From Hyalella azteca (taxonomy: Eukaryota > Arthropoda > Malacostraca > Amphipoda > Hyalellidae): 64,000 nucleotides of DNA. The notes below the pieces were generated by a model that was not told the origin of the DNA, ran no database searches, and saw only the letters and a program-made list of their open reading frames with translations. The position numbers and the translations under genes are program-made. The DNA lies in contig NW_025940654.1 in NCBI RefSeq assembly GCF_000764305.2, positions 8,898-72,897 on the forward strand, given 5' to 3'. How positions within the stretch are numbered: the first letter of the stretch is position 1; every line of letters begins with the position of its first letter. Positions 791 to 63,909 of this stretch are shown here, piece by piece.

Positions 791-1009
791 CTCTTGGGGT
801 TGTTTGATGGGGATGAGCCCTACGACGTATGGGGTCAACATGGCCCTGAGAGCCCCAGCGATGACGGGGTTGTATGGGGCCACATCCTCAGGAGATGTCT
901 CGGGTTCCCCAGGGGTTGCAGGGGTCGGGGAGGGGTCAGGTTGGGGGTACAGCCCCGCCAGACGCCCGCAGGCCCTCAGCGCCGCGACGCTGATCTTGTT
1001 TACAACCTC
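791..1009 (-). CDS. DNAJC13: DNAJC13 exon 29 (last in window)
   Basis: 73 codons, phase 0 to phase 0, from acceptor GTGTGTGCAG to donor GTTAGC. It ends in [18 protein letters not shown], matching the conserved GMLTPYV stretch of RME-8. A Pro/Thr-rich insert of about 20 residues sits in the middle, longer than in vertebrate proteins as I remember them. Confidence 0.92.
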
Positions 1010-4000
1010 CTGCACACACAAGGAGATAAGTGGCTCAAATATTTATTAGTGGGTCAGATAGTGTCCTCATACCAACACAGTCCCTGCGCGAAGTAAATAT
1101 ATGAACTGCCGAGCAAAACTGGGTCAAAATGACCCAAGAAAACGAGGAAAATCATCGATATTTGGACATTGTTTCACTTATTGCCCTGAGTTGTGGGGGG
1201 GGAGAGTGGGGTTCAGGGTGCTGCTCCGCCCACCTGGGCATTGGACTTCTGCCCCCGCTGCCCCGCCCACCTGGGCATTGGACTTCTGCCCCCGCTGCCC
1301 CGCCCACCAGGGCATTGGACTCCTATCTCCGCTGCCCCGCCCACCTGGGCATTGGACTTCTGCCCCCGCTGCCCCGCCCACAGCATTGGACTCCTCCCAC
1401 CGCTGCCCCGCCCACCTGGGCATTGGGCTCCTCCCCCACTGCCCCGCCCACCTGGGCATTGGGCTCCTCCCCCGCTGCCCCGCCCACATGGGCATTGGAC
1501 TCCTGCCCCACTGCCCCGCCCACCTGGGCATTGGACTCCTCCCCCCGCTGCCCCGCCCTCCTGGGCATTGGACTCCTCCCCAGCTGCCCCGCCCACCTGG
1601 GCATTGGACTCCTCCCCAGCTGCCCCGCCCACCTGGGCATTGGACTCCTCCCCTTCCTGCTGCCCCGCCCACCTGAGCATTGGACTCCTCCCCCCGCTGC
1701 ACGCCCCCCTCCTCCAGGGTGTAGTCGTACAGGAAGAGGCGCTGCAGGAGGTGCCACAGGACACCCGCGTGCAGGAGGCGCAGCTGCAGGATGGGGTCAA
1801 CCGCCAGCCCCCCACAGCACTCGACCCCAGCTAGGCTCAGCCCCAGGTGCTCCTGCGGGGGGAACGGGGGATTAGTTATTTGCCTCAATAACAGGACAGG
1901 AGGAGGGCAAATCAGCACACCGTTAAGGAGACAGAGACGAGGGGGAAGAAGAATCTACTTTATGGTATAGAGTGTGTCAAAGGTAGGCGTATCAGGACGA
2001 CCCACATGATAGAAGATGTGTCCGGTTGACCCACCTGATGGTAGAGGGTGTGACAGAGACGGGTGTGTCAGGGTGACCCACCTATTGGTAGAAGAGTGAT
2101 CCATCTGATGGTAGAAAGTGTCAGGTTGACTCACCTGATGATAGAACGTGTGTCAAGGCGACCCACCTCATGATAGAAGGTGTGTCAGGACGACCCACCT
2201 GATGGTAGAGGGTGTGGCAGAGGTGGGTGTGTCAGGGCGACCCACCTGATGGTAGAAGGTGTGTCAGGACGACCCACCTGATAGTAGAGGGTGTGGCAGA
2301 GGTGTACAGGGAAGGTGGGCAGCTCAGCGATGACTCCCCTACAGGTGGGGAAGGCAGCGGCGGCGGTGAAGCAGCGGGCAGTGTGCGTGCACACCTGCAC
2401 CGCCAGTGTGCTGGTGTGCTGCTTCGTGCTCAGCACACCTACACACCTGCTGTACGCCTCCTGCACGATCTGCACAGCACGACACGTGTCAGCCCACCAG
2501 CACACCTGCAGCCCAGACAACACCTACCACCCACCTGCCCACCTTCAAGTCAAAGCCCACAAAGGCCATCTGCGTTTATCCCCAGCCCACCTGTACCCCC
2601 ATGCAGCCCCCAGCCTACCTGTCACACCTCCCAGTCTCCCAGCCTCCCGACCGCCTCCCGTCAACTTTAAACCTCCCAGCTCACCGGCCCACCTGCACCC
2701 CCCATCCCACTACCCGCCCTCAGTCTCCCAGCCCAACAACCGTCTACAGCCCACTTGAAACCTTCCAGTCCAGCAACCCACCTGCGCTCCCCTGCAGCAC
2801 CCAGCTCGCCTCCCGCCTTCCAACCCACCGACCATCTCCCGCCACTTATAACCCCCAGACCACTAACCCACCTGCAGCCCACGTTCCCTGCAGAGCTCGG
2901 TGGCGTTGAGAGCACAGCACTGGATGGTGCGGTGGCACAGCTCGGCAGCAGCACCCAGCAGCGGGTCAGGCTTAGAGAACAGGTCGTCATCTTCACCCTC
3001 CAGCACGACCGTCTTCAGCAGCATGGGGTACCCGGCATACTTGTATGCTGACAGCACTGCATGGGGGAGGGGGGTCAGCATGGGGTACCCAGCATACTTG
3101 TATGCTGACAGCACTGCATGGGGGAGGGGGGTCAGTGCTGGGAGTGTCTATCTTCCTTAACAAATAGATAACAACCTATCAAATTATCAGTAAATTCCAA
3201 AATGAAAAAAAAATAACTTTATAATAGGAAGATGTGAATATCTGAACGTAATTCCTTGCAAAAAAATATATTTGTACGATAGTTTATACCCTAAAAAGAT
3301 TTAGATACCGGCGCGACACCAGATGCCGCCTAAGACTCGGGGAGCGCGTAGACCCCTAATAACTTTAAGCGATTGCAGCGACTTTGCACAGAAGCCGGGG
3401 CGGCCCCCAAATTTTGTTAGGATACGAGTGGTGTACAGGACGCTGCCACTCACCACTGGAGTAGCGGATGTACAGGACGCTGCCACTCACCACTGGAGTA
3501 GCGGGTGTACAGGACGCCGCCACTCACCACTGGAGTAGCGGGTGTACAGGACGCTGCCACTCACCACTGGAGTAGCGGGTGTACAGGACGCGGCCACTCA
3601 CCACTGGAGTAGCGGGTGTACAGGACGCCGCCACTCACCACTGGAGTAGCGGGTGTACAGGACGCCGCCACTCACCACTGGAGTAGCGGGTGTACAGGAC
3701 GCCGCCACTCACCACTGGAGTAGCGGGTGTACAGGACGCCGCCACTCACCACTGGAGTAGCGGGTGTACAGGACGCCGCCACTCACCACTGGAGTAGCGG
3801 GTGTACAGGACGCCGCCACTCACCACTGGAGTAGCGGGTGTACAGGACGCCGCCACTCACCACTGGAGTAGCGGGTGTACAGGACGCCGCCACTCACCAC
3901 TGGAGTAGCGGGTGTACAGGACGCCGCCACTCACCACTGGAGTAGCGGGTGTACAGGACGCCGCCACTCACCACTGGAGTAGCGGGTGTACAGGACGCCG

Positions 4001-7000
4001 CCACTCACCACTGGAGTAGCGGGTGTACAGGACGCCGCCACTCACCACTGGAGTAGCGGGTGTACAGGACGCCGCCACTCACCACTGGAGTAGCGGGTGT
4101 ACAGGACGCCGCCACTCACCACTGGAGTAGCGGGTGTACAGGACGCCGCCACTCACCACTGGAGTAGCGGGTGTACAGGACGCCGCCACTCACCACTGGA
4201 GTAGCGGGTGTACAGGACGCCGCCACTCACCACTGGAGTAGCGGGTGTACAGGACGCCGCCACTCACCACTGGAGTAGCGGGTGTACAGGACGCCGCCAC
4301 TCACCACTGGAGTAGCGGGTGTACAGGACGCCGCCACTCACCACTGGAGTAGCGGGTGTACAGGACGCCGCCACTCACCACTGGAGTAGCGGGTGTACAG
4401 GACGCCGCCACTCACCACTGGAGTAGCGGGTGTACAGGACGCCGCCACTCACCACTGGAGTAGCGGGTGTACAGGACGCCGCCACTCACCACTGGAGTAG
4501 CGGGTGTACAGGACGCCGCCACTCACCACTGGAGTAGCGGGTGTACAGGACGCCGCCACTCACCACTGGAGTAGCGGGTGTACAGGACGCCGCCACTCAC
4601 CACTGGAGTAGCGGGTGTACAGGACGCCGCCACTCACCACTGGAGTAGCGGGTGTACAGGACGCCGCCACTCACCACTGGAGTAGCGGGTGTACAGGACG
4701 CCGCCACTCACCACTGGAGTAGCGGGTGTACAGGACGCCGCCACTCACCACTGGAGTAGCGGGTGTANTCACCCAGCCCCTCACCCGTCCCCCAGCGTTC
4801 TTGTCAGGATGGTAGCGGGCCGCCAGCCTGAGGTAGGCCGTCACCCTGCCCCCAGCACCTCACCCAGCACCTCACCCGTCCCCCAGCGTTCTTGTCAGGA
4901 TGGTAGCGGGCCGCCAGCCTGAGGTAGGCCCTCCTGACGACGTCGTCAGCATGCCGCTGTCCCGGTGTCAGCTCGAGCTCCTCGTAGGCAGCGTCAGCAC
5001 TCATGCTGGGGGGCTGCTTGTGCACCTCCTCCCGCCAGGCTGACAGCACCTTCTTCAGCAGCATCACCTGCATCAGTGTGTTACATATTAGTATGGTTAT
5101 TCAGCATTACATGCAGTATTGTGTTATTTGATATGGTTATTAAAGTGAAGTGATTAATGTTGATCAGCATTAAATGCAGGATTGGGTTCTTTGTTATTAA
5201 AGTTATTCGGCATTAAATGCAGCATCTATTTTATATTATGAAAGTTAACTTAGGTTTTACGTTGATGTAAATTATATTAATCAATTTATAGAAATTTTAT
5301 TTTCAAGTTTTAAAGCCACTGCTTTTCAAGTTTGCTATCTAAGATCATTTAAAGTTTTGCCGGTAATTAAAATTAGATAAATTCTATTAAGAAAGTTCTA
5401 AAGCCACCGTTATTCAAGTTCCATATCCTCAAGTCATTGTAGTTATTCAATGGAAATATTTAATATTTAGTATTTTATCGCTGATGTAACTGAAGTTCTA
5501 AAAACATTTGCTCTTCAGGTTAGTTAAGCCAAGTTTTTATTAAAGAATACCTTCATTTTTGGTTATCCTAAATGATAATATGTTAAAAATTATACAACGT
5601 ACTCTTCACATAGAAATAGCTTTCAATATAATAAAATATTATATAATATAATGTTTAATATAATATAGTATGGTGCAATGTAATATTATATCATAATATA
5701 GCATAACATATATTAATATATAATATGATAAAGCACAGTAATTCATAATAATAAAAATCGTTACTTACTGGATATAGTACAGTGCAGTATAATATTATAT
5801 ATAATAATAAGAACCATTACCCACCGGGTCTTTAAGGCCCTGATTGAAAGCCAAGTGAAGTCTGAGAGCGAGGTTTTTGCGACCAAGTTTTGGTTTTACG
5901 GTTTTGTTCATCAAGTCTGCAACTTTTTTACTTTTTCCGAGATGTAAAAGGGTTGTAATTTTTATTCTCCATTGAATGGTATACTCGGCATCCCTTGATC
6001 AGCCTCCTTGTTTTAAATATTCTTTCTCAAAAAATAGTTATGATCGAGCCTGCTGATACGCGGAGGGAAAATACTACCGCATACTAGCTGCTCAAAGCAG
6101 GCGTTGTGGAAGGTATGAGGGGAAAGAGACGTATTAATTACTGAACTGTCAGTTCACGACGGGTGGCATGGTGAAGGCGAAGTCAATGAGGGGCGAAGAA
6201 TAATACGTGGCCAGTGGTCGGCCTAGTCCAATTAGTTATAGCCGACCGCTGGCCATTCCTCGGCCACCTGAAAGCGACCAGTTGCCGCGAAGAAGGGTCT
6301 GGCTAGGATATCATATTACAAAGAGTACAAGCTCGAGGGTAGCGACTGGCCGAGCTTTGGGCAGATCAAGGATTTTACACGATGGTTGCGAAAAACTCGC
6401 TCTCAGACTTCACTGCATTCTGACTACCAGCCTTAAGTGGGCTAGTACTTAATAATTAAATCCCTGAAAAGGGATTTATTGGGACTGGACTGGATTGAAT
6501 GGTGCTGAGTTGAAGTAAGTGGGATTAAGGCGGAGTGGGGATGCTGCTGAGTGGGTATGGTGGGTCTGAGTGGAGTTGAGGCAGAGTGGGATTGAGGCTG
6601 AGTGAACTAAGTGGGGCTGGGTGGGGTTGAATGATCTGAGTAGAGATACTATAGTTGGATGGGTTTGAGCGGGGTTGATGCTGGCTGGGGGTGAGGCTGA
6701 GCGGGGTTGAGGCTGAGCGGGGTTGATGCTGGCTGGGGGTGAGGCTGAGTGGGGTTGTGGCTGAGAAAGGCTTTTACAAAACCGGTATAGTGTGGCAGAA
6801 TAAGCGTTTCAATATGAACCTGCGTACATTAATTCACACTATAGCTAGCAGGGCCACGGCCACTTCCCAACTCTCCTCATTTGACGATATTCCTTATTCG
6901 AAATTCACTCCTAAATTTCTCCCTAGTACAGGTTAGCCTAAATAAACGTGTATACTTACGCAGACCTGACCTACCATCAATAATATGTACGAGTTAAAAA

Positions 7001-10000
7001 CTCTGTTCGCCAAACACAGACGGTTTTTCCAGCTAGACCCACTAACCACTGACGATGAATCGGGCGCTCTGTATACTTAGGCCGTTACGTGTACTTGAAC
7101 GGTTAAATGTAATTAGTCCTCTACGTGTATTTAAGCGTGTTTTGATAGTTCGGCGTCTGAATGTTTCACAAGAATGTTTCACATGCCACTTCTGATTCAA
7201 CTCGGACCCACTCAATAACCACTAGGCTGGAGCAAGAGATATTCAAGCTCACAGTTTCAAATGAAATATGGCCGCCGATTATTGTGATTTAATCAATCAG
7301 CCTAAATATTAACCAAGTAAATTTCGACGTGGAGTGAGATACCACAGTAGCAGACGTTGTCTACAGTGGCATGACTGTCCCACCAATGGCTTGACAGCAA
7401 TCTTGCACTGAGAGAAATGGGCGGGTCTGGATGACCCACTTTGATGAGTCAACCGCGTCCGAAAATCGATGCACTTTTTTGACTCACTTACCCCATTTGT
7501 GGGTCATACTGACCCATTAAATTTCAAGCATGACTCACTTGTGGCGTTAAATCGCTCTGACGCTCAGATGCTAGGGAAGGTGCTGGTGTCACAGAGGTGC
7601 TTGAGGTAATAGATGTCACAGAAGAGCTCACTCTCGAGCTGGGGGAAGGTGATGTGGGGGATGGGGCAGTACTGGTACTGGGCGCGGGTGTTGCTCACCA
7701 GCCGGGGGGTGAAGTCCCCCAGGTGACATGCTATCTTCTCTATCATGTACCGCCGCATCTCGCGGTTCCAGATGACCTGACATGATTAAATTACGATAAT
7801 AATTACATAATTACATAATGCTAAAGTCTGGTGTCAACCTGGCGTCTCATTGTAAACATAATTGTGTGTAATTGAGACGTTATATTCACTTGAACATCTG
7901 GTAGACACGTGACAGATCACGCGGTCAAGACCTCAGCAGTGGGCGGAAGTGAAGTCTATATAAGGGCTGCAACACTGAGTAAGGCCCCACGCAGTAGGGC
8001 CTTACGTATAGGGCATCACACAGTTCCACATCACACAGGGCCCTACGTATAGGGCATCACACAGTTCCACATCACACAGGGCCCTACGTATAGGGCATCA
8101 CACAGTTCCACGTCACACAGGGCCCTACGTATAGGGCATCACACAGTTCCACATCACACAGGGCCTTACGTATAGGGCATCACACAGTTCCACATCACAC
8201 AGGGCCTTACGTATAGGGCATCACACAGTTCCACGTCACACAGGGCCTTACGTACAGGGCATCACACAATTCCGCTATGTGTGATATTATATAATAATAA
8301 TAATTATATTGTTAGCTTCTCTATCATATAGTGCCGCATCTCACGGTTACAGATAACCTGTTATTATTTATTTATGATAATTACATAATTATAATAGGAA
8401 TAAATAATGATAATAATCATATAATTAAGGAGAGAGGTATAGATATATAGGGGAGGTATACATACCATATACAAGAGAGGTATACCATACCCATGGAGGT
8501 ATACACACAGGAGAGATATACCATACCTCAGGAGGTTTAGATATACAAGAGAGGTATACATACCTCAGGAGTATCGAACTCCCCGAGGAAGATCTCAGCG
8601 AACTTGTCAGGACCGTAGTTGTGCAGGTAGCAAACCATCGCCTCTGGTAGCAGGGGGCCCAGGATGCTCTGCTGCAGGAGGTCGCCCCCCGCCAGTTGCT
8701 GAGACAGTAATTAAATTATTAAATACGTTATACTTTATTATTATATTATGCTGTAATATTTATATTAATTATTACATTATAATTTATTACTATTATATAT
8801 GAAGCCCGAGCGTAGGTACCTATCAAAAAATCTCTGTACATTGATTTATGCGTTCACGACGGATCGCGAAAGGGTGGGGGGTGGTTGAGTTCTTTCACAT
8901 TTAAGATAGGCGGAAATTCCCGGTAGAACACTTAAATAGCTATTCCAAACACTATGTGCTTCAGTTATCCGCCTGCAGTCAACTGGGATGGTTCTCGTGC
9001 CGCCGTTCGCACCATCCTTGACAGAAATTGAGCTCCAGTATCGTCTAGTCTTGCAACCTTGCACCCATGAATGTCTATTTCGAGGCGCTCGCCACTTTGA
9101 CGGGCTCTACTGAAAAGTTAACTTATTGTCAATGCAAACCTATCTCCTCCTAGAGTTTTGAAGCTACATCAATGAGAGATATACCGTTCGATTTGCAAAG
9201 AAAAGATCTACAAAACATCGCATCCATTTTTCTGATTTCGTTATAGTTTGGATTTTATAATGCAAAACAGGAGGGGGGGGTGGCGGGGGTAAAATCGAAA
9301 AATTCAAAAAATTTTACAAAAAATGCCCCCACACCCACAAAAATGAAAAATTCAAAAAATGTATACAATGTTTTATAGATCTGGTCTTTACGCATCGAAT
9401 GATATGTGTTTCGATGTTGTAACTTTAAAACCCTAGGAGGGGATAGAATTCAAAAGTACCCCCTTTTTAGTCCGTTTTCTAAGAATTTCACGTTTTCTTT
9501 CATTTTTTTCGCAAAATTCACAGGAACAAAAAAATTCTCTTTTGGTTTTACACATGTATACCAAGTTTAAAACTAATCCGTCAGTAAATAGCTGAGATAA
9601 AATTTTGCCCAGACGCTCCCCTTAATATAATGAGTTCAATGTTATGAGTGCAACCTCGGACAATAATGTAATATTTATATTAGTTATTACATTATAATTT
9701 ATTATTATTAATATACTGTAATATTTAAATTATTTACTAGATTATAATTAATATTATTAGATTCCTTTAATACCTATTAATACCTAAATATGAGTTAATT
9801 AATCATGGGAAAAATTTTTATCATTAAAAAGAAAAAAAATAATTTTTAACCAAAATTAAATAGTAACATAATAATTAGAAATAAAAATTAAATTGAATAA
9901 TAAATAATAATAATACGTCCCCTGTGATCTGTCACCTCCTGCGGACGGAAGGTCTGTCTGAGGTGACAGAGATGCAGTAGACGGGCGACGGGCAGCACGT

Positions 10001-13000
10001 TAGACCCCACGTACATCAGCACGAAGAAGAACAGACCTGTCGTGTAGACGGTAGACAGGGCGGGGTTGTCTGTCAACACCTCGCACAGCAGCGTGGCCAC
10101 CTGTCAACATAAGTGGGTCAAAACAACCCACCTTCTCACCGCCCCTAACAAAATTTAGAGTCGCCCCTAACAAAATTTAGAGTCGCCCCTAACAAAATTT
10201 AGAGTCGCCCCTAACAAAATTTAGAGTCGCCCCTAACAAAATTCAACAAAATTTAGGGTTGCCCCAGCTTCTGTAAATTTCCAATGGGGAGTGGGTCACA
10301 ACAACCCACCTTCTCGACAATGTCGGGTCAAAGGTGAGCAGGAGCTGGGTGAGGGTGGGTCACAACAACCCACCTTCTCGACAATGTCGGGGTCAAAGGT
10401 GAGCAGGAGCTGGGTGAGGGTGGGCAGACAGAGTGGGTCACAACGACCCACCTTCTCGACAATGTCGGGGTCAAAGGTGAGCAGGAGCTGGGTGAGGGTG
10501 GGCAGACAGAGTGGGTCGGAGGTGTAGCGGCGCACCCTGGCCAGAGGGCGGACGACGCAGCCGTCGGGGGTGCGGGGCGGGAAGTACGAGCACATCCCCG
10601 TCAGCAGGGACAGGCACAGGGATGCTAGGGCGCTCTCCGTCAGTACCGGGGTGCCCTGGGGGTCATTAGTGGTTGTTAATGGTTATGTAATTGTTAATGC
10701 ATTGTTATATAATGGTTAGTGAATGGTTATTGAACGGTAAGTGCCCTGGGGGTGATGAGTGGTTGTTAATGGTTGTATAACGGTTAGTGAATGGTTATAT
10801 AATGAGTACTGAATGGTTATATATCAGCACCGCGGTGGCCTGGGGGTGAATAATGGTGAATATTGGTAATATAATGGTTGGTGAATGGTTATTGAATGGT
10901 TATATAATGACTACTGAATGGTTATTGAACGGTAAGTGCCCTGGGGGGGGGGGATGCTAAATGGCGACTAATGGTGATTAATGGTTGTATAATGAATAGT
11001 AAATGGTTATACAATGGTTATCGAATGGTGATTAATATTGATTAATGGTTGTTTGATGCGTCAGACGTGGCCTCTACATCTGCGTCAGCAGCGTCAGACG
11101 TGGCCTCTACATCTGCGTCAGCAGCGTCAGACGTGGCCTCTACATCTGCGTCAGCAGCGTCAGACGCTACAAGGGTCTAGCCCCTTAAGACCCCTGGGAC
11201 CCTAAGGACCCATCGTGGCGAGTATAGCCTCTACATCTGCGTCAGGAGTATGAGGGTCTACAAGGGTCTAGCCCCCAGGACCTAAGACCCACCGTGGCGA
11301 GCAGGGTCCACTTGAGCTGCGGGACCTGGAGGAGGGGCTTCCAGCCCTCCAGACCCTGGGCCCACACGAGGGTCTTGGCGGTGATGGCCCCGTCAGCGTA
11401 GAGCTCCTTCAGCTCGGGGAAGCTGTAGGGTCCAGCCCGGGTCTTGGCGGCGTCCTGCGACAAGGTCTAGATCACTACAAGGGTCTAGGTCAATACAAGG
11501 GTCTAGGTCACTACAAGGGTCTAGATCAATACAAGGACAAGGGTCTAGGTCACTGCAAGGGTCTAGGTCAATACAAGGGTCTAGGTCACTACAAGGGTCT
11601 AGGTCAATACAAGGGTCTAGGTCACTACAAGGGTCTAGGTCAATACAAGGGTCTAGGTCACTACAAGGGTCTAGGTCACTACAAGGGTCTAGGTCACTAC
11701 AAGGGTCTAGNNNNNNNNNNNNNNNNNNNNNNNNNNNNNNNNNNNNNNNNNNNNNNNNNNNNNNNNNNNNNNNNNNNNNNNNNNNNNNNNNNNNNNNNNN
11801 NNNNNNNNNNNNNNNNNNNNNNNNNNNNNNNNNNNNNNNNNNNNNNNNNNNNNNNNNNNNNNNNNNNNNNNNNNNNNNNNNNNNNNNNNNNNNNNNNNNN
11901 NNNNNNNNNNNNNNNNNNNNNNNNNNNNNNNNNNNNNNNNNNNNNNNNNNNNNNNNNNNNNNNNNNNNNNNNNNNNNNNNNNNNNNNNNNNNNNNNNNNN
12001 NNNNNNNNNNNNNNNNNNNNNNNNNNNNNNNNNNNNNNNNNNNNNNNNNNNNNNNNNNNNNNNNNNNNNNNNNNNNNNNNNNNNNNNNNNNNNNNNNNNN
12101 NNNNNNNNNNNNNNNNNNNNNNNNNNNNNNNNNNNNNNNNNNNNNNNNNNNNNNNNNNNNNNNNNNNNNNNNNNNNNNNNNNNNNNNNNNNNNNNNNNNN
12201 NNNNNNNNNNNNNNNNNNNNNNNNNNNNNNNNNNNNNNNNNNNNNNNNNNNNNNNNNNNNNNNNNNNNNNNNNNNNNNNNNNNNNNNNNNNNNNNNNNNN
12301 NNNNNNNNNNNNNNNNNNNNNNNNNNNNNNNNNNNNNNNNNNNNNNNNNNNNNNNNNNNNNNNNNNNNNNNNNNNNNNNNNNNNNNNNNNNNNNNNNNNN
12401 NNNNNNNNNNNNNNNNNNNNNNNNNNNNNNNNNNNNNNNNNNNNNNNNNNNNNNNNNNNNNNNNNNNNNNNNNNNNNNNNNNNNNNNNNNNNNNNNNNNN
12501 NNNNNGGTAGTACCACTCCTTGAGGTGCAGTGTGCTGGTAGTACCACCCACCTGGTAGTACCACTCCTTGAGGTGCAGTGTGCTGGTAGTACCACCCACC
12601 TGGTAGTACCACTCCTTGAGGTGCAGTGTGCTGGTAGTACCACCCACCTGGTAGTACCACTCCTTGAGGTGCAGTGTGCTGGTAGTACCACCCACCTGGT
12701 AGTACCACCCACCTGGTAGTACCACTCCTTGAGGTGCAGTGTGCTGGTAGTACCAGCCTCTATACAGTTGGAGGAGGTGGGTAGGTGGGCACGCTGGGTG
12801 TGTAGGTGGGCCAGGGACATGAGGTCAGTGAGCACCCGCACCCCGCCCCCCTCCAGCACCTCCCGCACGTTGCCCCGGTGCAGGATCAGCTGATAATATA
12901 TTATAATGTTAGAATAATTACCATATATCATATATATATATAATTATCATATATTATACCACATATATATATATATATATATAATTTTCTTATATATGTA

Positions 13001-40520: not shown

Positions 40521-40673
40521 NNNNNNNNNNNNNNNNNNNNNNNNNNNNNNNNNNNNNNNNNNNNNNNNNNNNNNNNNNNNNNNNNNNNNNNNNNNNNNNN
40601 NNNNNNNNNNNNNNNNNNNNNNNNNNNNNNNNNNNNNNNNNNNNNNNNNNNNNNNNNNNNNNNNNNNNNNNNN
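40521..40673. other. Assembly gap, 153 N
   Basis: N run between the 26-bp repeat and the truncated end of the LINE open frame. Confidence 1.
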
Positions 40674-41745
40674 TTGAGGAACAAGAGAGGCGAATGCAGA
40701 ATTAAAAAGACGTTCATCATGGAAAAGTGCCCTATTCATGAATTTTAAAAGCTGAAATTTGTACATATCGTCAAGTTTTAAAATTTTCGACTGTTTATAT
40801 AACACACTAGTACGAGTCAATGGGATATTGTTTTCGTCGTACCTAACCCGAAATATTGTACGCAACGATTTATTAATTAAGGTGATGACCCGTTTCTTTG
40901 AATTAAAAGGTACCCCACCCCAGATTAGCAACGTGTTTGATAGTTTAGATAAGGACAATGAGCAAAAAAGCGTTCTTAATGATGGAAGAGGTAAAACACT
41001 AGATAGAGCACGCAAGACTCCGTGGGCTTTGCTCAGCCCCTGACAGACGTAGTTAATGTGTTTATTGTAGGAAAACTTATTGTCGATTATTAAACCAAGA
41101 TATTTAAAATCATCGACCCATTCTAAAACTTTCCCATTGAAGGTGATGTCACGTAGAAAGGAAACGGGTCTAGGAGTAAAGAGCATCAACTTCGTCTTAT
41201 CTGTATGAGCCACAAGCCTGTTCTTTAAGAGCCATCTAGACAAATTCACTGTTAGCTCAGAAACATAATCACACGCTTCATCGTAGGAACTTCTAGAGAC
41301 ATATAGGACGGCATCGTCGGCAAAAAGCTTGCAGTTTACGTTAAAAGACAAGGCGATATCATTGATAAAATATTAAAAAATAAAGGCCCAAGTACAGAGC
41401 CCTGATCAGGTACACCTATATTGATGGGTCCTATGGGGGATTTGAAATCATTCAATGCGACAAACTGCTCTCTATTCGCTAGGTAAGACTGGATAAGCAA
41501 AAGGAAAGGCCCTCTAATACCATACCGGTGGAGCTTATTCAAGAGAATTTGGTGATTTACACAATCAAAAGCCTTTTGTAGGTCTAGAAAAAGAGCAACA
41601 CAGTAATCTTTAGAATGATAAGTCCTGAGGAGATCCTTAACTAGATAAAATGTAGCCATTGTCGTATTAGTACCCCTACGAAAACCGAACTGATTATCTG
41701 ATATTATTGAAAATTTGTCGAGAAAATTGGTGAGTCTGGAATGGA
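40674..41745 (-). mobile_element. Non-LTR retrotransposon reverse transcriptase fragment
   Basis: Reads, from 41745 down, DNQFGFRRGTNTT, ALFLDLQKAFDCVNHQIL, GSVLGPLFFNI, LFADDAVLYVSR and LKNRLVAHTDKTKLMLF, then a thumb/connection-like region to 40680. FADD is the catalytic box and LDLQKAFD holds the other catalytic Asp. One base is missing in a T run near 41367-41370, splitting the frame just before FADD. Where the family usually has PQGS it reads PDQGS. Truncated at both ends, by a repeat and by the gap. Jockey/CR1-like; clade not resolved. Confidence 0.92.
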
Positions 41746-41751
41746 GAATTC

Positions 41752-42015
41752 CAGACTGCCAATCAAAACATCCTATATATTGCTAATCAAAACATCCTAT
41801 ATATCGCCTATCAAAACATCATATATATTTCCAATAAAACATCCTATATATTGCCAATCAAATAGCCTATATATTGCCAATCAAAACATCCTATATATTG
41901 CCAATCAAAACATCCTATATATTGCCAACCCAAACGTCCTATATATACAATCAAAACATCCTATATATTACCAATCAAAACATCCTATATATTGCCAATC
42001 AAAACAGCCTATATA
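41752..42015. repeat. ~23-bp repeat (ATCAAAACATCCTATATATT), ~12 copies
   Basis: Directly adjoins the 5'-truncated end of the LINE fragment. Confidence 0.95.
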
Positions 42016-42036
42016 TTGAAAGAGTGAAGCTATTAA

Positions 42037-43160: not shown

Positions 43161-43163
43161 AAG

Positions 43164-52300: not shown

Positions 52301-55300
52301 AAAAACAATTGTGAATGTTTGAAAATGTATTTATGTAGGCAGAGGTTCAGGGATACAATTCCCTCGATTTCATTCAAAATGTCCACCATCTGCATCAATA
52401 ACGAGTTGTAGACGCTTAGAGAAAGCCTTACATGAGTCACGAATAACACTCGATCTGCGGGATTTTGGCCCACTCCTTCAGCAGTTTGACCTCTAGGGCG
52501 TCCAAACTGCTATGGTGAACGGTCGAGACCTTGCTCTCAAGGTATGACCAGATCCCAAAAAGATCCCAAAATCCAGAGGATTCAGATCGGGTGACGATGA
52601 TGGCCATTCATCTTTGGTAATGAAGTGGGGAACATTCTCGGACAGCCACTCCTGAGTCGATTTGGCCCCATGGGATGGTGGAGTCCTGCTGGAACGACCA
52701 GGGGCATCATAAATAAATACCATAACCTCCGGGCCAGGTCCCCGTTCCTGTACCTGGGCCTGCTGGGCCTCCTGGAGATGCCTGGGGCGCTGCTGGTGGC
52801 CCCGCTGGGCCGTCGCCTGGGCCGCCGCAGCGCCTGCGCCGTCCTCGCCTGCGTCTGCACCGCCGCCATGCTGGGCCTCGGCCTCCTACGCCTCCACCAG
52901 TACCCTAACGGTGGGTCATGGTGACACACTTGTGCCTTGGCGGTGGGTCATGGTGACACACTTGTGCCTTGGCGGTGGGTCATAGTGACACACTTGTGCC
53001 CTGACGGTGGGCCAGCTGACCATTCATTAATAATATATATAGTACATTTAATTCCTGTATATTATATGCATTTTATAATGTTACTCGTGTAGAGTTTTCC
53101 AATACCCGCGTATATATAACGTTTCACAGCGCAGTTGCCATGTATATCGTTCATCACTACACAATAGACATGTAGTATATTATTTTTAAAACACAATTAT
53201 CTAGTGTATCACTACGCAATTTTGTGGCATGTTTCACACATCACAATTATCTTGTGTATAACTCATATCAAAATTCGGGGACCGCCTAGGCTTCGGCCGA
53301 ATAGTCGCTACACTCGGCGCCAAGCTATTCTGGACTTGCTTGGCCATCCGATCGAAATCAGCTTCTGGTCAAAATCTCATCTCCGATTTCATAGTCGCCT
53401 GAGAGTATGACAAGGGTTGGCCCTGCCGAGTCATACCGAGATAGCACGCTGCCCAGAGGCTACCCTCTAAACCCAGAGCTGAAGCGGACATGAGCGGCTG
53501 ATTTATGTGCTCCCCTAGTCCTGGGCGGCACCTGATGCAGATCCGCTCCCACCTTAAAATTGTGTTAACGACTACACACGTGTGCCATATTTCACACAAT
53601 TGTATGTATGTTGCCACACAGACGGGGTGCTAATGCTGCTGTCCGTGATGGCGTACACATCGCTCGTTGGAGTCTCGCAGGTTCGACTTTTTTGTTGTAT
53701 TGTATTTTTGTAAAATTAATCTATATCATATGAGTGTTCTATAAATTATTGTTGTAATATTGAGTAGTGTTATATTTTTGTTATTTCATAATCGTTAATA
53801 TACGTAACTTCTAACTTGTATGAATAATATTGACCAATTTATCTTTTTTTCAATCAATATTATGATGATTTGAATCATTAAAATGTGAATCAAACAAAAT
53901 TTTAAAGCAATGGAAAGGAAAACAAAAACTACTACATTTCTGTTAAAAACGTTTTCTATTTTTGGGGAGTGGATTTGAAAAGTGCCACAATTCCCTAAAT
54001 ATAATTTGTGCAGTTGATAGTATCGTAAAGGAAGATTCGCACGTAAATGCAGTTTTACCCAAGATGTCACGATGTCCTTTTACCCCAGATAGTGACGATG
54101 TCATGTGACCCCAGATAGTGACGATGCCATTTTACCCCAGATGTTGACGATAACATTTTACCCCAGATGTTGACGATGACATTTTACCCCAGATGTTGAC
54201 GATAACATTTTACCCCAGATGTTAACGATGACATTTTTCCACAGATGTTGACGATAACATTTTACCCAGACAGTGACGATGCCATTTTACCTCGGACATT
54301 GACGATGCCATTTTACCCCAGACAGTGACAATGCCCTTTACATCAGACAGTAACGATGACATTTTACCCCAGATGGTGGCAATACTGACATCAGAACTAT
54401 ACCCCACATCGGTGCGGGCTCTGGGGTCGTCGGTTGGGTACCTGGCCAACTGCGTGGGCAACTGCCTGCCCCCCTTCCTGGACGTCCTCCTGGTGAGCAC
54501 CTAATGTCGTTCATTTCTCAACAAGTGTCACTTTTAGACAATTTAGCTTTGCGTTTCATTGATTAAAAGAAACAATTTCATTTATTAGGCACTGTAGCGC
54601 AGTGGTTAGCGCTAAAGAAAAGCAAGTTAATAGTCTTTTCCGGTGTCATTGGTGGGCGGCGCTCAGTAGATGTCAAATGTGGTGCATCAGAGTTACCATA
54701 GGCGGTGTCCAAAATGAAATCTAGGTACATGTTATTTTGAATTTTAGGTCTCGAGGCAATATTATTATATTTCTTGAAAATACTGTCGTTATATTTCTCG
54801 AAAATACTGGAAATGTTGCAATACTATCTAGTCCTGCAATCGAGCCTAAATATAACGCTCCTTGCAGCCTGTTTGTTCAATTGAACGTACATGATTTACC
54901 GAAAAAATAGTTTGAATTCCTCAGGATTTGATTTTAATGAAAAGTTGGTTCCATTAACCTTAGTCCACTGAATTACCTAGCACCGTTTAAAATAAATTTC
55001 CGGGTGTTAGGTGCATTTGTATTTCCTCCCTATTGGTTCCATTTGTCTCATAACCCTCTCCCCCCTGTCACCCAGCCGGCGTGGGAGAGCTACGTCTCGC
55101 TATTGGTTCTATTTATACCACAATTCCCCCATGTCCCTCAACCAGTGGGGGAGAGCTACGTCTCGCTATTGGTTCTATTTATACCATAATTCCCCCTGTC
55201 CCCCAGCCGGCGGGGGGAGAGCTACGTCTCGCTATTGGTTCTATTTGTACTATAATTCCCCATGTCCCCCAGCCGGCGGGGGAGAGCTACGTCTCGCTAT

Positions 55301-55928
55301 TGGTTCTATTTGTACTATAATTCCCCATGTCCCCAGCCGGCGGGGGAGAGCTACGTCTCGCTATTGGTTCTATTTGTACTATAATTCCCCATGTCCCCCA
55401 GCCGGCGGGGGAGAGCTACATCTCACTATTGGTTCAATTTATACCATAACCTCCCTAATGTCTCCCTATTGGTTCTATTTGTACTACAATCCCCCTCCCC
55501 CCTGTCCCCCAACCGGCGGGGGGAGCTACGTCTCCCTATTGTTTCAATTTATACCATAACCTCCCTCATGTCTCCCTATTGGTTCTATTTGTACTACAAT
55601 CCCCCTCCTCCCTGTCCCCCAGCCGGCGGGGGAGAGCTACGTCTCGCTATTGGTCTACTCGGGGATGGCGTTTGGGTGCGCGTTGCTCGCTCTCTGTCTG
55701 CCCGAGACCAGCGAGCGCCGCATGTACGAGACCGTGCACGAGCTCGTCACTCACCAGCGCGGGACCTCTGACCTCGCTGACCACGAGCGCAAGAATCTCC
55801 ACGATGACGTCAGCTACGAACCTCTGCACAATGACGTCAGCGACGACGGGGATGACCAAGATGACGACGACAGCCACGACCATGTCACTCACCAGCGGTC
55901 GAAAACATCTTGCCTTAATATCGTCTGA
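43164..55928 (+). CDS. SLC22-type organic ion transporter (MFS), 13 exons, complete
   Basis: Member of the SLC22 organic cation/anion/zwitterion transporter branch of the major facilitator superfamily: a 12-helix plasma-membrane carrier. Exons 43164-43302, 44674-44905, 45703-45831, 46517-46640, 47303-47406, 47592-47746, 50120-50294, 50952-51096, 51586-51749, 52738-52910, 53622-53680, 54373-54492 and 55623-55928 sum to 2025 nt (674 aa plus stop) with matching phase at all twelve junctions. Signatures in order: LVCGRAWLRAVFQTLFTVG before TM2, GGVLSDRHGRQ (residues ~235-247, MFS motif A), DESPRWLLLRGR (~355) after TM6, PLGRRLGRR between TM8 and TM9, TSELYPTSVRALG (~540) and LPETSERRMYETV at the end. 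The large first extracellular loop (~66-205) contains an unusual Asp/Tyr tract. The substrate cannot be told from the sequence. An in-frame ATG at 43116 is an alternative start. A possible AATAAA is at 56855. Confidence 0.95.
43430..43745 (+). mobile_element. Dispersed repeat family R (copy in intron 1)
   Basis: Shares GCTCCCCGAGTCCTGGGCGG and the TGGCC-CTGGTCAGAATCTC core with copies at 46701, 47040, 48437 (inverted) and 53272. Non-coding. Confidence 0.75.
44200..44660. other. Very AT-rich intron segment
   Basis: TTAATTAATAATTATTA-like low-complexity sequence up to the exon 2 acceptor. 43960-44090 carries a TGACCCACTTTGGTCCACT / AGTGTGTCACTAGTTGGAC dispersed motif. No exon. Confidence 0.6.
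44674..44905 (+). CDS. SLC22-like exon 2 with DDY tract
   Basis: VPMSLVGNLFVSDFVTPSLG then, at residues ~76-104, an Asp/Tyr/Gly repeat tract (DDYDDYDDYGDYGDY) in the extracellular loop. The tract is a coding trinucleotide-based expansion (GACTATGAT). Donor GTAAAT, phase 2. Confidence 0.93.
44963..45108. mobile_element. MITE family M, copy 1
   Basis: About 146 bp with inverted ends GGCCTATACTTTCTAAA / AAGTATGGCCC. Contains CCAATCATAGACAAGAAAA. Homologous to 61816-61961 (inverted) and 62850-62992. Confidence 0.85.
45365..45520. repeat. ~18-bp repeat (GGCCGCTACGTGTACTTA), ~8 copies
   Basis: Imperfect array in intron 2; a single related word lies at 7078-7100. Confidence 0.9.
45703..45831 (+). 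CDS. SLC22-like exon 3
   Basis: Encodes NNFTGRKLLDVAPYDPDLVA then a Pro-rich stretch and DPHGELQHEVEDYR, part of the extracellular loop. NNFT is a potential N-glycosylation site. Donor GTAAGA. Confidence 0.9.
45870..46003. mobile_element. MITE-like element, copy 2
   Basis: Homologous to 18553-18714, with the same ACTCACTGCAGTGAGT palindrome and AGCGCATTTTCTC / GAGAAAACGCGCT ends. Slightly shorter inside. Confidence 0.8.
46517..46640 (+). CDS. SLC22-like exon 4
   Basis: ENCREAPRASLGVGGVTVQ, AACRSFEFLPSVYGWTATEE: cysteine-bearing end of the extracellular loop preceding the family's W-D-L-V-C block. Acceptor follows a poly-C tract. Donor GTGGGG. Confidence 0.92.
46701..46930 (+). mobile_element. 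Dispersed repeat family R, plus-orientation copy
   Basis: Begins CCCTAACAAAATTCGGGGTA. About 90% identical by eye to the reverse complement of 48437-48662. A partial further copy is at 47040-47140. Confidence 0.88.
47303..47406 (+). CDS. SLC22-like exon 5
   Basis: YSLVCGRAWLRAVFQTLFTV, GCVLGAAIGGVLSD: TM2 and the start of motif A. Strong SLC22 match. Donor GTGGGG, phase 2. Confidence 0.97.
47592..47746 (+). CDS. SLC22-like exon 6
   Basis: HGRQRTVCWGSALACVVSLA, then LLLLCRLLLGITVFIAVNPL: TM3 and TM4. Its donor starts a GTGTGTGGT microsatellite (47747-47822). Confidence 0.95.
48160..49840 (+). mobile_element. Degenerate LINE reverse transcriptase, interrupted by repeat R
   Basis: Broken frames give ADVVHIDFARKRLTK, then (after the insertion at ~48400-48670) GRLLGLIHNFSTHR, NNMQFNGTKFEVIRYSTGM, WSFVVSFGRHSKQ and LFNALPQKLRGGVFTLKTF, the order of a CR1/RTE-type ORF2 from palm to C-terminus. 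Many stops and frameshifts; long dead. Confidence 0.85.
48437..48662 (-). mobile_element. Dispersed repeat family R, inverted copy nested in LINE
   Basis: Reverse complement of 46701-46930, ending ACCCCGAATTTTGTTAGGG. It splits the LINE palm domain, so it inserted after the LINE. Confidence 0.88.
49861..49908 (+). pseudogene. Relic copy of SLC22-like exon 6 end
   Basis: CTGCTCTGCCGCCTCCTGC...GTCTTCATCGCCGTGAA encodes LLCRLLLWVAVFIAVN, closely like exon 6 LLCRLLLGITVFIAVN, and is preceded by the same GTGTGTGGTG that follows exon 6. It lies at the far end of the intron, beyond the LINE. Confidence 0.8.
50120..50294 (+). CDS. SLC22-like exon 7
   Basis: ALEVCPASHRHLYGPIESL, MLPLLAAAAYFCRNWRLLQL, CMALPLLLALLLSCPL: TM5 and TM6. 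Ends CCGCT|GTAAGC, phase 2, the first of many such donors. Confidence 0.95.
50262..50770. repeat. Donor-edge minisatellite of exon 7 (~14-27 bp, ~25 copies)
   Basis: Units combine exon sequence CTCCTGCTCTCCTGCCCGCT with donor GTAAGCC. The array runs ~475 bp into the intron with at least 20 CCCGCT|GTAAG junctions. Confidence 0.96.
50952..51096 (+). CDS. SLC22-like exon 8
   Basis: VMDESPRWLLLRGRLMDAER, GTQHQLPAGLHQLLDAVYK. The ESPRWL signature after TM6 is diagnostic for SLC22. Donor GTATAG; ~28 nt of exon end (CTGCACCAGCTG) is repeated once just after it, followed by GTGGGTCATCC. Confidence 0.97.
51230..51550 (+). mobile_element. Dispersed repeat family S, copy 1
   Basis: ~320 bp shared with 60410-60730 in the same orientation, e.g. 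CACTTCTTGTCTGTCTGCTAC and GACAATGCATGAATCGATTG. Non-coding. Confidence 0.85.
51586..51749 (+). CDS. SLC22-like exon 9
   Basis: RTLRSQGPSSASLRTHLVSL, STKEMLTITAVTAAMWLMEG, ALYISLPLKAPEY: cytosolic loop and TM7. Donor GTGGGG, phase 2. Confidence 0.93.
52369..52725 (-). mobile_element. mariner/Tc1-superfamily transposase C-terminal relic
   Basis: Frames read FQQDS, then AKSTQEWLSENVPHF, WPSSSPDLNPLDFGI, LEVKLLKEWAKIPQI, SCKAFSKRLQLVIDADGGHF and stop (~52370). SPDLNPLD carries the third catalytic acid as Asp. At least two frameshifts; only the last third of the gene is present. The relic ends within ~30 bp of the exon 10 acceptor. Confidence 0.93.
52738..52910 (+). CDS. SLC22-like exon 10
   Basis: SPFLYLGLLGLLEMPGALLV, PLGRRLGRRSACAVLACVCT, AAMLGLGLLRLHQYPN: TM8, motif-A-like loop and TM9. 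Phase fits both neighbours. The acceptor (AACCTCCGGGCCAG) has almost no pyrimidine tract. Confidence 0.95.
52905..53005. repeat. Donor-side repeats of exon 10 (33 bp, 3 copies)
   Basis: Donor GTGGGTCATGGTGACACAC is repeated at 52911, 52944 and 52977. Each unit ends in a CG like the exon. Confidence 0.95.
53272..53540 (+). mobile_element. Dispersed repeat family R, another copy
   Basis: Starts AAATTCGGGGACCGCC and ends CCTAGTCCTGGGCGGCACCT, as in 43430-43745 and 46701. Confidence 0.8.
53622..53680 (+). CDS. SLC22-like exon 11
   Basis: DGVLMLLSVMAYTSLVGVSQ, TM10. 59 nt. The donor GTTCGA is poor, but phase 0 into exon 12 fits. Confidence 0.88.
54060..54385. repeat. Acceptor-edge minisatellite of exon 12 (~27-28 bp, ~11 copies)
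   Basis: Units repeat the intron end ACATTTTACCCCAG plus an exon-start-like ATGTTGACGATGAC (exon: ATGGTGGCAATACTGAC). The last unit at 54373 is the real exon start. Confidence 0.9.
54373..54492 (+). CDS. SLC22-like exon 12
   Basis: 40 codons: MVAILTSELYPTSVRALGSS, VGYLANCVGNCLPPFLDVLL. TSELYPT.VR is diagnostic; TM11. Donor GTGAGC. Confidence 0.97.
54590..54628 (+). mobile_element. tRNA-derived SINE head (A-box-like)
   Basis: CTGTAGCGCAGTGGTTAGCG resembles a tRNA A box with the typical SINE start. No B box nearby, so only a fragment. Confidence 0.45.
55035..55640. repeat. Acceptor-edge minisatellite of exon 13 (~60-70 bp, ~9 copies)
   Basis: Each unit holds an acceptor (TGTCCCCCAG), exon start CCGGCGGGGGAGAGCTACGT (PAGESYVSLL) and ~25 nt of intron (TTCTATTTGTACTATAATTC). 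Only the last unit (55623) continues into the real exon. Confidence 0.97.
55623..55928 (+). CDS. SLC22-like exon 13, terminal
   Basis: PAGESYVSLLVYSGMAFGCA, LPETSERRMYETVHELVTHQ, then an acidic Asp/His-rich cytosolic tail with repeated DDVS(Y/D) and THQR blocks, ending at TGA (55926-55928). Confidence 0.95.
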   Translation, partial: PAGESYVSLLVYSGMAFGCALLALCLPETSERRMYETVHELVTHQRGTSDLADHERKNLHDDVSYEPLHNDVSDDGDDQDDDDSHDHVTHQRSKTSCLNIV

Positions 55929-60219: not shown

Positions 60220-60335
60220 GTAAAAATGACTCACGACTAATGGCAGTGTGTCAACATGACTCACGGGCAGTGTGTCAACATGACTCACGGGCAGTGTGTC
60301 AACATGACTCACGGGCAGTGCGTCAACGGTGGTTC
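60220..60335. repeat. 24-bp repeat (GCAGTGTGTCAACATGACTC), 4-5 copies
   Basis: Array built from the GTGAGTCA / TGACTCAC motif family. Confidence 0.93.
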
Positions 60336-61024: not shown

Positions 61025-63909
61025 CTGATTAATTAATTAATTATTAATAAGAATACGTCAATCGTGAAGTTCATGAAGTTATTTGGAAATGAATATATAT
61101 GCTAACCAGGAGTTAATAGTTAACATTTTTTTAAATTAGTAAAATATTTTGAAAATGTATTTGTACCGGAGTTTGAGAGTACAACTAACCTGTTCGTTGT
61201 AGGAGCGTAAGCCTGCACGGTGCGGGCCACGGCCCCCCAGTCCCCCGCCTGGGCCCCCAGCACCACCAGCTGGGGGGGCGGCACCGCTGGCAGGGGCACG
61301 GCACCTCCCTCGGTGTCACCCACGGGGGCGTAGACGCCTGGTACATTAATTATTTACAGTTGAAGTCAATATCAAACTATTACTATTATTATTATTATTA
61401 CTATTACTATTGCCATTACTATTACTATCACTATTATTATTACTATTACTATTACTATTGCTATTACTATTACTATTATTATTACTATTACTATTGCTAT
61501 TACTATTACTATCACTATTATTATTATATATCACTATTACTATTGCTATTACTGTTACTATTACTGTTGCTTACAATTCAAATTGCTACTTTCATACAGA
61601 TCATGCTCAATGTTTGCCTATCATTACTGACAGAGAGATGCATATTTGCCGAGGAGCGCCCCTAGGTCGAGGGGACCCATTATCCTGATGGAGAAATAGG
61701 CTGGAGGAGCAGCAGTTGCAGCCAGAGCTGCCACGCCTGCAGCCGTGCCGATACAGCCTTCGAAAGTTTTGATCTTGGATCTGCGTAACGTAAACTGGAA
61801 TGAATTAGTGAACTGGGGCCATACTTTCAAAACTCGCTAAGTGAACGTAAGCCCATACGCTCTATTTTCTTGTCTATGATTGGTGGATTTTGCTTGAAAG
61901 GCCGTCGATGATTAGCTGATGAACTTACGATCTCTTAATTTTTTTTTGAAAGTATAGGCCCTGAAAAAGATCCTTACAATTTATTTCTCAGTCAACAGAC
62001 TGAAACAGTACGGGATTAGGATGGTGCATGTAGTGACAGAACTTCACCAATCGAAAAAGAGACATTTATTTTTTGTGCGGACTATAGTAAAAAATGATAT
62101 GTTTCCTTTTGTTATTTAATTTTGCATCAGAGCATTTGTAGAACTAATTTAGAACTTCTCCATTTCTCGATCGACAAAATAAAAAGATGGCTCATGTCAT
62201 ATAAGCAACTCGTTCGTAAACTGAAGATGACGTTAAAATGACGTTTATCCAACGTATTTTTAACGTCACGCTTTGCACTAGTTGCTCATATGAAGAGAAG
62301 TTGATAAATCCAAGAAGTTGATAAATCCCAGAAGTTGATAAATCCAAGAAGTTGATAAATACAAGAAGTTGATAAATCCAAGAAGTTGATAAATCCGAGA
62401 AGTTGATAAAACCGAAAAGTTGATAAATCCAAGAAGTTGATAAATCCGAGAAGTTGATAAAACCGAAAAGTTGATAAATCCAAGAAGTTGATAAATCCAA
62501 GAAGTTGATAAAACCGAAAAGTTGATAAATCAAACAAGTTGATAAATCCAAGAAGTTGATAAAACCGAAAATTTGATAAATCCATGAAGTTGATAAATCC
62601 ATGAAGTTTATAAATCCAAGAAGTTTATAAATCCAAGAAGTTAATAAATCCCAGCTCACAATCCAATATTTTTCTACACTCAGAACCACAAATGGTTCTG
62701 TATATATAGTGGCACACATTCTGCATACATCAATGGGACGTTTTTTTGTGGGCCCAAATTTGGTTTTTATGACCCACACTATAGGGCCAAAAAGTGCATC
62801 GCTATTTGAACAGTCTCTTAATTTTTCTGAGTATATGTCATTTATTTATGCCCATACTTTCAAAAAAAGTTAAGAGATCGTAAGTTCATCAGCCAATCAT
62901 TGATGGCCTTTCAAGCCAAACCCACCAATCATAGACAAGAAAAGAGAGCGTAAGTACTTACGTTCACTGAGCGAGTTTTGAAAGTATGACTCCTGCTGGT
63001 AGGGCGAGGATGGATGATTTACCTGCTCCCCAGCAGCGGCTGAAGGACCTCATCACACGGCTGGAACTCCTTTACCTGCTCCCCAGCAGCGGCTGAAGGA
63101 CCTCATCGCACGGCTGGAACTCCTTTACCTGCTCCCCTGCAGCGGCTGAAGGACCTCATCACACGGCTGGAACTCCTTTACCTGCTCCCTTGCAGCGGCT
63201 GAAGGACCACATCACACGGCTGGAACTCCGAGTTCAGGTCCAGGAGGTCCAGGAAAAGGTGTCCTGCGTGGCGTTGGACGACCTGCCGCCAGGCGTGGGC
63301 GTTCAGCACCTCTGGGGCCACCTTCACGTTGACGGCCGCGCCCCTAGCGTGGGGCAGCATGAGGGCAACCGCGTCCAGGTCACGACCTGCATAACGTACA
63401 CTGAGAAATATGAATAGGTAATATGGTCCAAATGTTGATACCCTTTCATACCCACAGTCCCACAGTGCGAGCAGAGAGCGGACAAGCGTGTTGTATATGT
63501 TACGTAACATGAAAAGATTATATACTACGGGATACAATTGCAGTGTTACGGGCTACGATAGCATGAACATTACGGCTCGTTATCACAAATCTTACGGCTC
63601 CCTGTCACGAATCTTACGGCTCATTATATGGTGAGTTTTTTTCCTAATTTAGCTAATTTTTATTCTAATCTAATCTTATGAATCTCACTGCTCGTTATGA
63701 TGAACTGATCGCCCCCCTTCCGACTCATCCTAGCTGCGTAGCGCGCAATCTTGTCCTCATGGGGGCAGCTGAGCATCACCTCCCACCACTGCCGGGCTGA
63801 GGCCCCCGCCTCCTCCATGACGCGCTTCACCCACGGCCACTGGGCATCGAAGTCCCCCAGGGCACTGGATTGCAGCTGGGTGACCACTTGGCGGACCACA
63901 CCCGCTGAC
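60895..63909 (-). CDS. Unrecognised gene, last five exons
   Basis: Exons 63689-63909, 63182-63386, 61632-61684, 61190-61337 and 60895-61024 join with exact phase (1, 2, 1, 2) to ~250 C-terminal residues ending at TGA 60895-60897. The sequence is Leu/Ala-rich and probably helical: ALGDFDAQWPWVKRVMEEAG, VNVKVAPEVLNAHAWRQVVQ, IMGPLDLGALLGKYASL, FERIDLRKSGLSEADELQLL. The L-x-L spacing in the last two suggests leucine-rich (ribonuclease-inhibitor-like) repeats, but this is only an impression. The N-terminus lies beyond 64000. Function unknown. Confidence 0.85.
61190..61337 (-). CDS. Unrecognised gene, penultimate exon
   Basis: VYAPVGDTEGGAVPLPAVPP, PQLVVLGAQAGDWGAVARTV, QAYAPTTN. Donor GTTAGT. 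Confidence 0.85.
61380..61565. repeat. (ATTACT)n-type microsatellite
   Basis: Mixed TATTAC/TATTAT hexamer repeats; gives false Tyr- or Asn/Ser-rich ORFs. Confidence 0.95.
61632..61684 (-). CDS. Unrecognised gene, 53-nt exon
   Basis: Encodes IMGPLDLGALLGKYASL between CATCAG and GTCAGT. Called because its phase bridges the exons on both sides exactly. Confidence 0.7.
61816..61961. mobile_element. MITE family M, copy 2
   Basis: Inverted relative to 44963 and 62850. Ends GGCCATACTTTCAAAA / TTTTGAAAGTATAGGCC. Confidence 0.88.
62290..62650. repeat. 17-bp minisatellite (AAGTTGATAAATCCAAG), ~21 copies
   Basis: Imperfect units (CCAAG, CCGAG, CCGAA, CCATG variants) in an intron of the unrecognised gene. 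A long open minus-strand frame here is repeat-derived. Confidence 0.96.
62850..62992. mobile_element. MITE family M, copy 3
   Basis: Ends CCCATACTTTCAAAA / TTTTGAAAGTATGA. With copy 2, inverted and ~900 bp away in the same intron, it could form a ~145-bp stem. Confidence 0.88.
63012..63190. repeat. Donor-edge minisatellite of the unrecognised gene (53 bp, 3 extra copies)
   Basis: Donors GAGCAG|GTAAAGG at 63182, 63129, 63076 and 63023 are 53 bp apart. Each unit includes the exon end (CDVVLQPLQGS) and donor. 53 is not divisible by 3. Confidence 0.96.
63182..63386 (-). CDS. Unrecognised gene, second visible exon
   Basis: RDLDAVALMLPHARGAAVNV, KVAPEVLNAHAWRQVVQRHA, GHLFLDLLDLNSEFQPCDVV. Donor GTAAAG, phase 2. 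Confidence 0.88.
63689..63909 (-). CDS. Unrecognised gene, first visible exon
   Basis: SAGVVRQVVTQLQSSALGDF, DAQWPWVKRVMEEAGASARQ, WWEVMLSCPHEDKIARYAAR, MSRKGGDQFIITS. Acceptor ATTTTCCAG, donor GTGAGA. Confidence 0.85.

Follow-up and report, generated by a model that had tools for sequence, protein, structure and literature searches.

Tandem arrays of short units cross the exon ends of three genes in a 64,000-nucleotide stretch of the Hyalella azteca genome (hereafter the window). In all, 18 of the 40 placed splice donors are spanned, as against 2-3 of 39 acceptors; the units combine an exon end with the start of its intron, donor copies within them are largely intact, and donors are spanned more often than random placement of arrays would give. 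We think it rather probable that these are minisatellites of the mirage type, with donor edges favoured at least in DNAJC13 of H. azteca. The structure is already known in kind from the "mirages" of amphioxus, minisatellites of intron/exon boundaries (PMC3087553), a precedent on which the preliminary description of this DNA was silent.

Genes and reference proteins

The minus strand carries DNAJC13 (RME-8), between ~30.8 kb and the left edge of the window. Its exons were placed by tblastn with the human protein and by splice-pair scoring, and 17 consecutive exons gave a single open frame of 1193 residues. The first protein searches led to malacostracans, including the amphipod Trinorchestia longiramus (P0047), and a longer protein query found the deposited "dnaJ homolog subfamily C member 13-like, partial [Hyalella azteca]" (P0094). 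The latter contains 23 of 24 tested DNAJC13 exon peptides, identical letter for letter, which places the DNA in H. azteca or a very close relative; the sole mismatch, e6, has a low-complexity stretch in the window that is absent from P0094. Two missing exon ends were also located with P0094, that of e5 in a 48-nt array beside an N gap and that of e23 in a 37-nt array, and these two donors were positioned only after this comparison. The donors of e21, u1, and u5 are unplaced and were excluded from the counts. The start of e15 has a second, non-tandem copy at 14553-14594, ~180 nt upstream of the acceptor in use.

An SLC22-like transporter gene occupies 43.2-55.9 kb of the plus strand; its frame is open to the stop, and its product matches Pfam Sugar_tr and was aligned with the amphipod relatives P0078 and P0079. 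Its x5-x6 intron holds a partial, diverged copy of x5 (LCRLLL..VFIAVN) at 49862-49910, ~2.1 kb downstream. Exons of a third gene lie at 60.9-63.9 kb on the minus strand, and a Pfam search with four pieces of it gave no matches. Minus-strand fragments at 40341-41782 and 52496-52885 resemble a reverse transcriptase and a mariner-type transposase.

Arrays at exon ends and the choice of donor

Arrays were detected with TRF (score 50+, period 10+) and counted as spanning when they reached at least 3 nt on each side of a splice site (Table 1). They make up 27% of the window, and their share is 33% in intron and 10% in exon. Sixteen of the 37 donors first placed were spanned, and the addition of e1, e5, and e23 brought the count to 18. 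The distribution is uneven: 16 of 27 donors in DNAJC13, one of 11 in the SLC22-like gene (x6), and one of two in the third gene, so that arrays do occur at exon edges in all three genes, as the preliminary description held, though far from equally. On the acceptor side it listed seven repeats; the analysis gave three tandem cases in 39 acceptors (e24, x11, and x12), besides the separate copy of the e15 start. A self-match scan at one shift, used as a second method, gave 16 of 37 donors and two acceptors from a partly different list, without the weak e7 and e20 arrays and with e22 and x7 gained.

Table 1. Positions of arrays and related features in the window (e, DNAJC13 exons; x, SLC22-like exons; u, exons of the third gene).
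Feature	Position	Strand	Detection or remark
DNAJC13 exon e2, donor 30238	30238..30373	-
97-nt unit, across e2 donor, 66 nt exon side	29913..30303	-	TRF
~42-nt unit, across e4 donor (28692)	28329..28715	-	TRF
48-nt then 27-nt arrays, across e5 donor	26229..26701	-	Remainder of exon in N gap 26702-27364
16-nt unit, 2.7 copies, e7 donor (23254)	23227..23268	-	Weak; TRF, not self-match scan
62-nt unit, across e8 donor (22313)	22187..22367	-	TRF and self-match
50-nt unit, across e10 donor (20778)	20585..20813	-	TRF
51-nt unit, across e12 donor (17357)	17076..17389	-	TRF
57-nt unit, across e13 donor (16785)	16535..16828	-	TRF
30-nt unit, across e14 donor (15508)	15285..15529	-	TRF
71-nt unit, 2 copies, across e15 donor (14210)	14130..14269	-	TRF and self-match
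48-nt unit, across e16 donor (12713)	12506..12755	-	TRF; adjoins N gap 11711-12505
65/78-nt unit, across e18 donor (10452)	10291..10517	-	TRF
36-nt unit, e20 donor (8564)	8466..8571	-	Weak; TRF, not self-match scan
91-nt shift duplication, across e22 donor (4876)	4769..4930	-	Self-match; TRF shows 12-nt repeat only
37-nt unit, 36 copies, across inferred e23 donor (~4749)	3430..4767	-	Adjoins single N
32/79-nt unit, across e25 donor (2278)	2148..2304	-	TRF
36-nt unit, across e26 donor (1673)	1220..1700	-	TRF
27-nt unit, across x6 donor (50294)	50272..50774	+	TRF
~37-nt shift duplication, across x7 donor (51096)	51065..51125	+	Self-match only
32-nt unit, from 2 nt before x9 end (donor 52910)	52909..53011	+	TRF; not counted as spanning
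53-nt unit, across u2 donor (63182)	63018..63229	-	TRF
57-nt unit, across e24 acceptor (3056)	3019..3135	-	TRF
26-nt unit, 6 nt beyond x11 acceptor (54373)	54053..54378	+	TRF
66/110-nt period, across x12 acceptor	55355..55654	+	TRF; acceptor 55635, ~55623 after P0078 comparison
19-nt palindrome sites	10433-10451, 2259-2277, 52911-52929, 26676-26694, 51126-51144, 58124-58142, 60246-60312, 7421-7517, others

The basic unit is 16-97 nt long across arrays. On the exon side the 16 TRF donor arrays extend 8-66 nt, in each case less than one basic unit, and the extra copies are therefore intronic, in agreement with the earlier claim that copies reach into the intron only. The claim that unit lengths vary and that the sequences are unrelated was also borne out: in a comparison of 18 arrays (17 donor-spanning arrays and x9, with e7 excluded), a single pair had a stretch in common (18 nt) with E no higher than 0.01. 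This supports an origin in numerous independent duplications, not in a single mobile repeat.

An imperfect palindrome of 19 nt, similar to GTGGGTCAnnnTGACnCAC, has 23 matches in the window with up to three mismatches (0.02 expected); several of these fall in a single array or occur on the two strands alike. It forms the first 19 nt of the e18, e25, and x9 introns and of the e5 array, and is common to four compared arrays, falling under the E 0.01 reporting threshold. A palindrome that opens introns and recurs elsewhere in the window is what might be expected of an introner-like mobile element carrying its own donor, but we consider such an element highly improbable, as the palindrome also lies away from exons, occurs in x9 and in only three of the 18 arrays that span donors, and is the one sequence shared at different intron sites, where introners would place one element sequence, apart from the 18 nt of the single pair.

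The units are weighted toward the exon. The exonic fraction has a mean of 0.76 (n = 16 arrays), which none of 5000 simulations reached; GC-weighted placement on 20 array-free donors would give 0.53. On the intron side the unit includes 1-31 nt. Three further arrays, whose starts are no more than 2 nt from the donor (x9, x5, and e22, the last as delimited by TRF), are outside this test, and the fraction falls to ~0.65 when they are added by hand. The GT is kept in 74 of 81 matched copies, many of which are identical letter for letter, while some e16 matches are off register.

Use of the later donors would mostly disrupt the protein. Of 31 later donors examined in 10 DNAJC13 exons (the test leaves aside e4, e5, e7, e22, e23, e25, and e26), 25 would cause a frameshift or run into a stop codon, and six, in e12, e13, and e18, would leave the frame open. 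P0094, a deposited model and not RNA, joins at the exon-proximal donor for 13 of 15 checkable arrayed donors (junction peptides of e2, e7, e8, e10, e12, e13, e14, e15, e16, e18, e20, e25, and e26). The exceptions are e22, which is read beyond the first donor, and one of two e4 copies, which runs into the array. Together the frame test and the gene model point to use of the first donor, and we infer that this donor wins in RNA. Between e22 and e24, P0094 also treats about one unit of the 37-nt array (3430-4767) as coding, and the assembly apparently lacks most of the true e23. That array consists of 36 nearly identical copies with a single N at its end.

Transposase mosaic-end adapter sequence remains in the assembly at 27365-27382, 28030-28067, and 37856-37870, beside gaps and within an intron. 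Adjacent to this sequence is an exact 578-nt copy of the e4 stretch, 1093 nt from its counterpart (27450-28027 = 28543-29120), which is probably a false duplication and may be why the e4 peptide is present twice in P0094. Together with joins marked by a single N at two arrays (4768 and 38372) and the unreliable copy number of long arrays such as that with 36 copies of 37 nt, these features could be taken to mean that the arrays are assembly artefacts, repeats collapsed or expanded and wrongly joined from short reads. We regard this as quite improbable, since all 16 TRF donor arrays are free of N, 10 of the 16 are shorter than 250 nt, copies differ within most donor arrays (67-100% match), and traces of arrays appear in the T. 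longiramus protein model. In P0047, nine SQSHV units follow the end of e11 and repeated EWYYQVLG-like peptides follow the end of e16, as would be expected of a gene-prediction program that ran on into arrays at these two exons. In the window the e16 array differs in apparent unit from the P0047 repeats, and e11 has no array; a comparison of two exons with one protein model thus suggests turnover, or recurrence at one donor.

Donors and acceptors compared with chance

By point coverage, 43% of the first 37 donors are in arrays, compared with 33% of intron. When intron points are matched for GC, the excess vanishes (16 of 37 donors, against 18.9 expected by self-match or 20.1 by TRF), and acceptors look depleted (2 of 39 vs. 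13.8, or 3 of 39 vs. 15.3 expected). Both results go against the reading favoured here. Point coverage was given up as the null model because arrays already fill much of the GC-rich intron and because an array may enter the exon with one unit only. In the null that replaced it, each array was collapsed to one unit, founding rates per start position were taken by GC class from exon-free DNA, and these rates were applied to every position of a unit spanning a donor or an acceptor. The stretch 27365-28329, with the duplicated e4 and adapter, was dropped before counting, and the e16 rows were merged by hand. Array origins per kb were 1.46 (GC <40%), 0.73 (40-50%), 2.76 (50-60%), and 3.79 (>60%), the GC-rich background rate being based on 29 events (17 + 12).

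Against this null, 18 donor-spanning origins were seen where 3.07 were expected, an excess of ~6-fold, and none of 50,000 simulations, which include the uncertainty of the rates, reached 18. Acceptors were at background (2 seen vs. 2.90 expected), the count being two rather than the three of TRF because the non-redundant set no longer contained the x12 array row. For the 37 donors already positioned when P0094 was compared, the result was 16 vs. 3.01 expected, and three stricter array cut-offs gave 15-17 donors vs. 2.26-3.34. DNAJC13 alone gave 16 of 27 vs. 2.61, and the SLC22-like gene alone 1 of 11 vs. 0.32 (P ~0.34). The P values overstate the case because the window was chosen as striking by a reader. 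The excess is carried by DNAJC13; a donor-directed duplication process is possible and may be peculiar to that one gene. Donor arrays may also stay detectable for up to perhaps ~2 times as long as intronic ones, the exonic copy not drifting.

Base composition and tolerance could together produce much of this pattern. Duplication of short DNA would be ubiquitous and more frequent at high GC, with exonic arrays purged, donor-spanning arrays tolerated because they leave the short donor signal whole, and acceptor-spanning arrays surviving less, so that no preference for donors would be needed. Several observations agree with this reading: a third of intron is array, origins per kb are higher in the GC-rich classes, the SLC22-like gene has no clear donor excess, and point coverage puts donors level with GC-matched intron and acceptors below it. 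Moreover, one wholly exonic array was seen where ~22 were expected, a scarcity that matches the prediction from selection on coding sequence. We nevertheless consider this reading somewhat unlikely, as it predicts ~3 donor-spanning origins and 18 were observed. Loss at acceptors is unnecessary for the asymmetry because acceptors are not clearly below their prediction. Tolerance alone accounts for the intronic location of the copies but not, by origin counts, for the ~6-fold donor excess, and we infer that donor edges, at least in DNAJC13, are duplicated more often than other GC-rich DNA, beyond being better tolerated. Both proposals of the preliminary description thus survive in part. Its boundary-directed duplication agrees with the donor counts, mostly from DNAJC13, but not with the acceptors, which stand at random expectation, and its weaker explanation, survival on the intron side, fits the missing exonic copies but not the donor excess.

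The donor motif alone was considered as the hot spot and rejected, although it may contribute. Counted as collapsed cases, intronic sense donor-like sites lay in non-donor arrays at frequencies of 16% with the lower threshold and 30% with the higher one, and intergenic donor-like sites, which are few, gave 15% and 33%; for real donors the figure was 45%. The bias of G-rich donors or R-loops that had been suggested found no support, since the mean GC skew of the transcript strand in 16 donor arrays was 0.03, with no bias toward a G-rich strand, and exon ends at array donors and at other donors showed no clear difference in GC (p 0.22) or skew (p 0.15). CpG was lower at array donors than at other donors (p 0.044, uncorrected).

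The units bear AG/GT or a similar donor, as would be required if introns were gained by duplication of AGGT-bearing segments, each intron then being a duplicate. None of the donor-spanning TRF arrays in the window also covers the next acceptor, whereas an intron gained in the manner of Rogers would be bounded by two copies of a duplicated exonic segment. We therefore hold this origin to be extremely improbable, and the suggestion that the arrays are raw material for intron gain is not upheld in the window.

For the mirage-type arrays that we favour, a short tandem duplication would first include the terminal 8-66 nt of an exon and a few intron nucleotides with the donor. Unequal exchange or slippage would then multiply the unit, so that at the start of the intron the exon end and its donor would be present in nearly identical copies, from two up to some dozens. 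The donor nearest the exon would stay in use, and because of this the protein would be unchanged and the array tolerated.

Relation to known boundary minisatellites

According to the amphioxus report, mirages have units of 10-160 bp with splice signals in many copies, splicing was reported as normal, their length is unstable, with somatic instability at Adh3, and their cause was not known, a role in intron gain being proposed (PMC3087553). The arrays of H. azteca resemble mirages in their tandem units across the exon-intron boundary, in unit length and sequence that vary by locus, in splice signals carried by the copies, and in affecting both exon edges, although acceptors are rare here. They differ in the amphipod host, in their density within one gene, and in a strong bias toward donors, the amphioxus examples showing both edges. 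Reports on splicing and instability exist for mirages, while the H. azteca arrays are known here from sequence and protein models.

Lancelet PGBD5 was also described as having tandem repeats, of 60 and 108 bp, at splice sites, and unlike the present arrays they concern one gene of a chordate (PMC3902484). In a fission-yeast case, several 24-bp AGGT-bearing duplicates are crossed by an intron (cited in PMC4974935). The intron-gain duplications treated in PMC4974935 share with our arrays a local tandem duplication with splice signals, but our arrays occupy one end of an intron that already exists and create no new one. Ordinary intronic minisatellites, such as those in PMC12783039, which are not boundary copies, have a similar size range of units, similarity of copies, and abundance in this genome; the arrays in this window differ from them in that they are tied to exon ends and donors more than random expectation allows. 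In the open-licence literature, represented mostly by titles and the starts of abstracts and including passages of PMC5111886 and PMC7831040, no boundary minisatellites were found outside amphioxus.

Gene models appear to run into arrays (P0094 at e4, e22, and e23; P0047 at e11 and e16), which is a warning for annotation. Dense boundary minisatellites in an arthropod suggest that the phenomenon is wider than amphioxus. The asymmetry between donors and acceptors is measurable and separates duplication bias from tolerance, and the arrays are a natural experiment on the choice of the spliceosome among identical donors. We offer tentatively, and regard as rather doubtful, the stronger proposal that a germline process of amphipods duplicates the exon tail and 5' splice site, stopping ~1-31 nt from the donor, far more often than other DNA; many introns would then begin with long ladders of identical donors, the exon-proximal donor alone being used. 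If it were true, splice donors, not acceptors, would be hot spots of tandem duplication, and the spliceosome would need a rule for picking the first among many identical donors.
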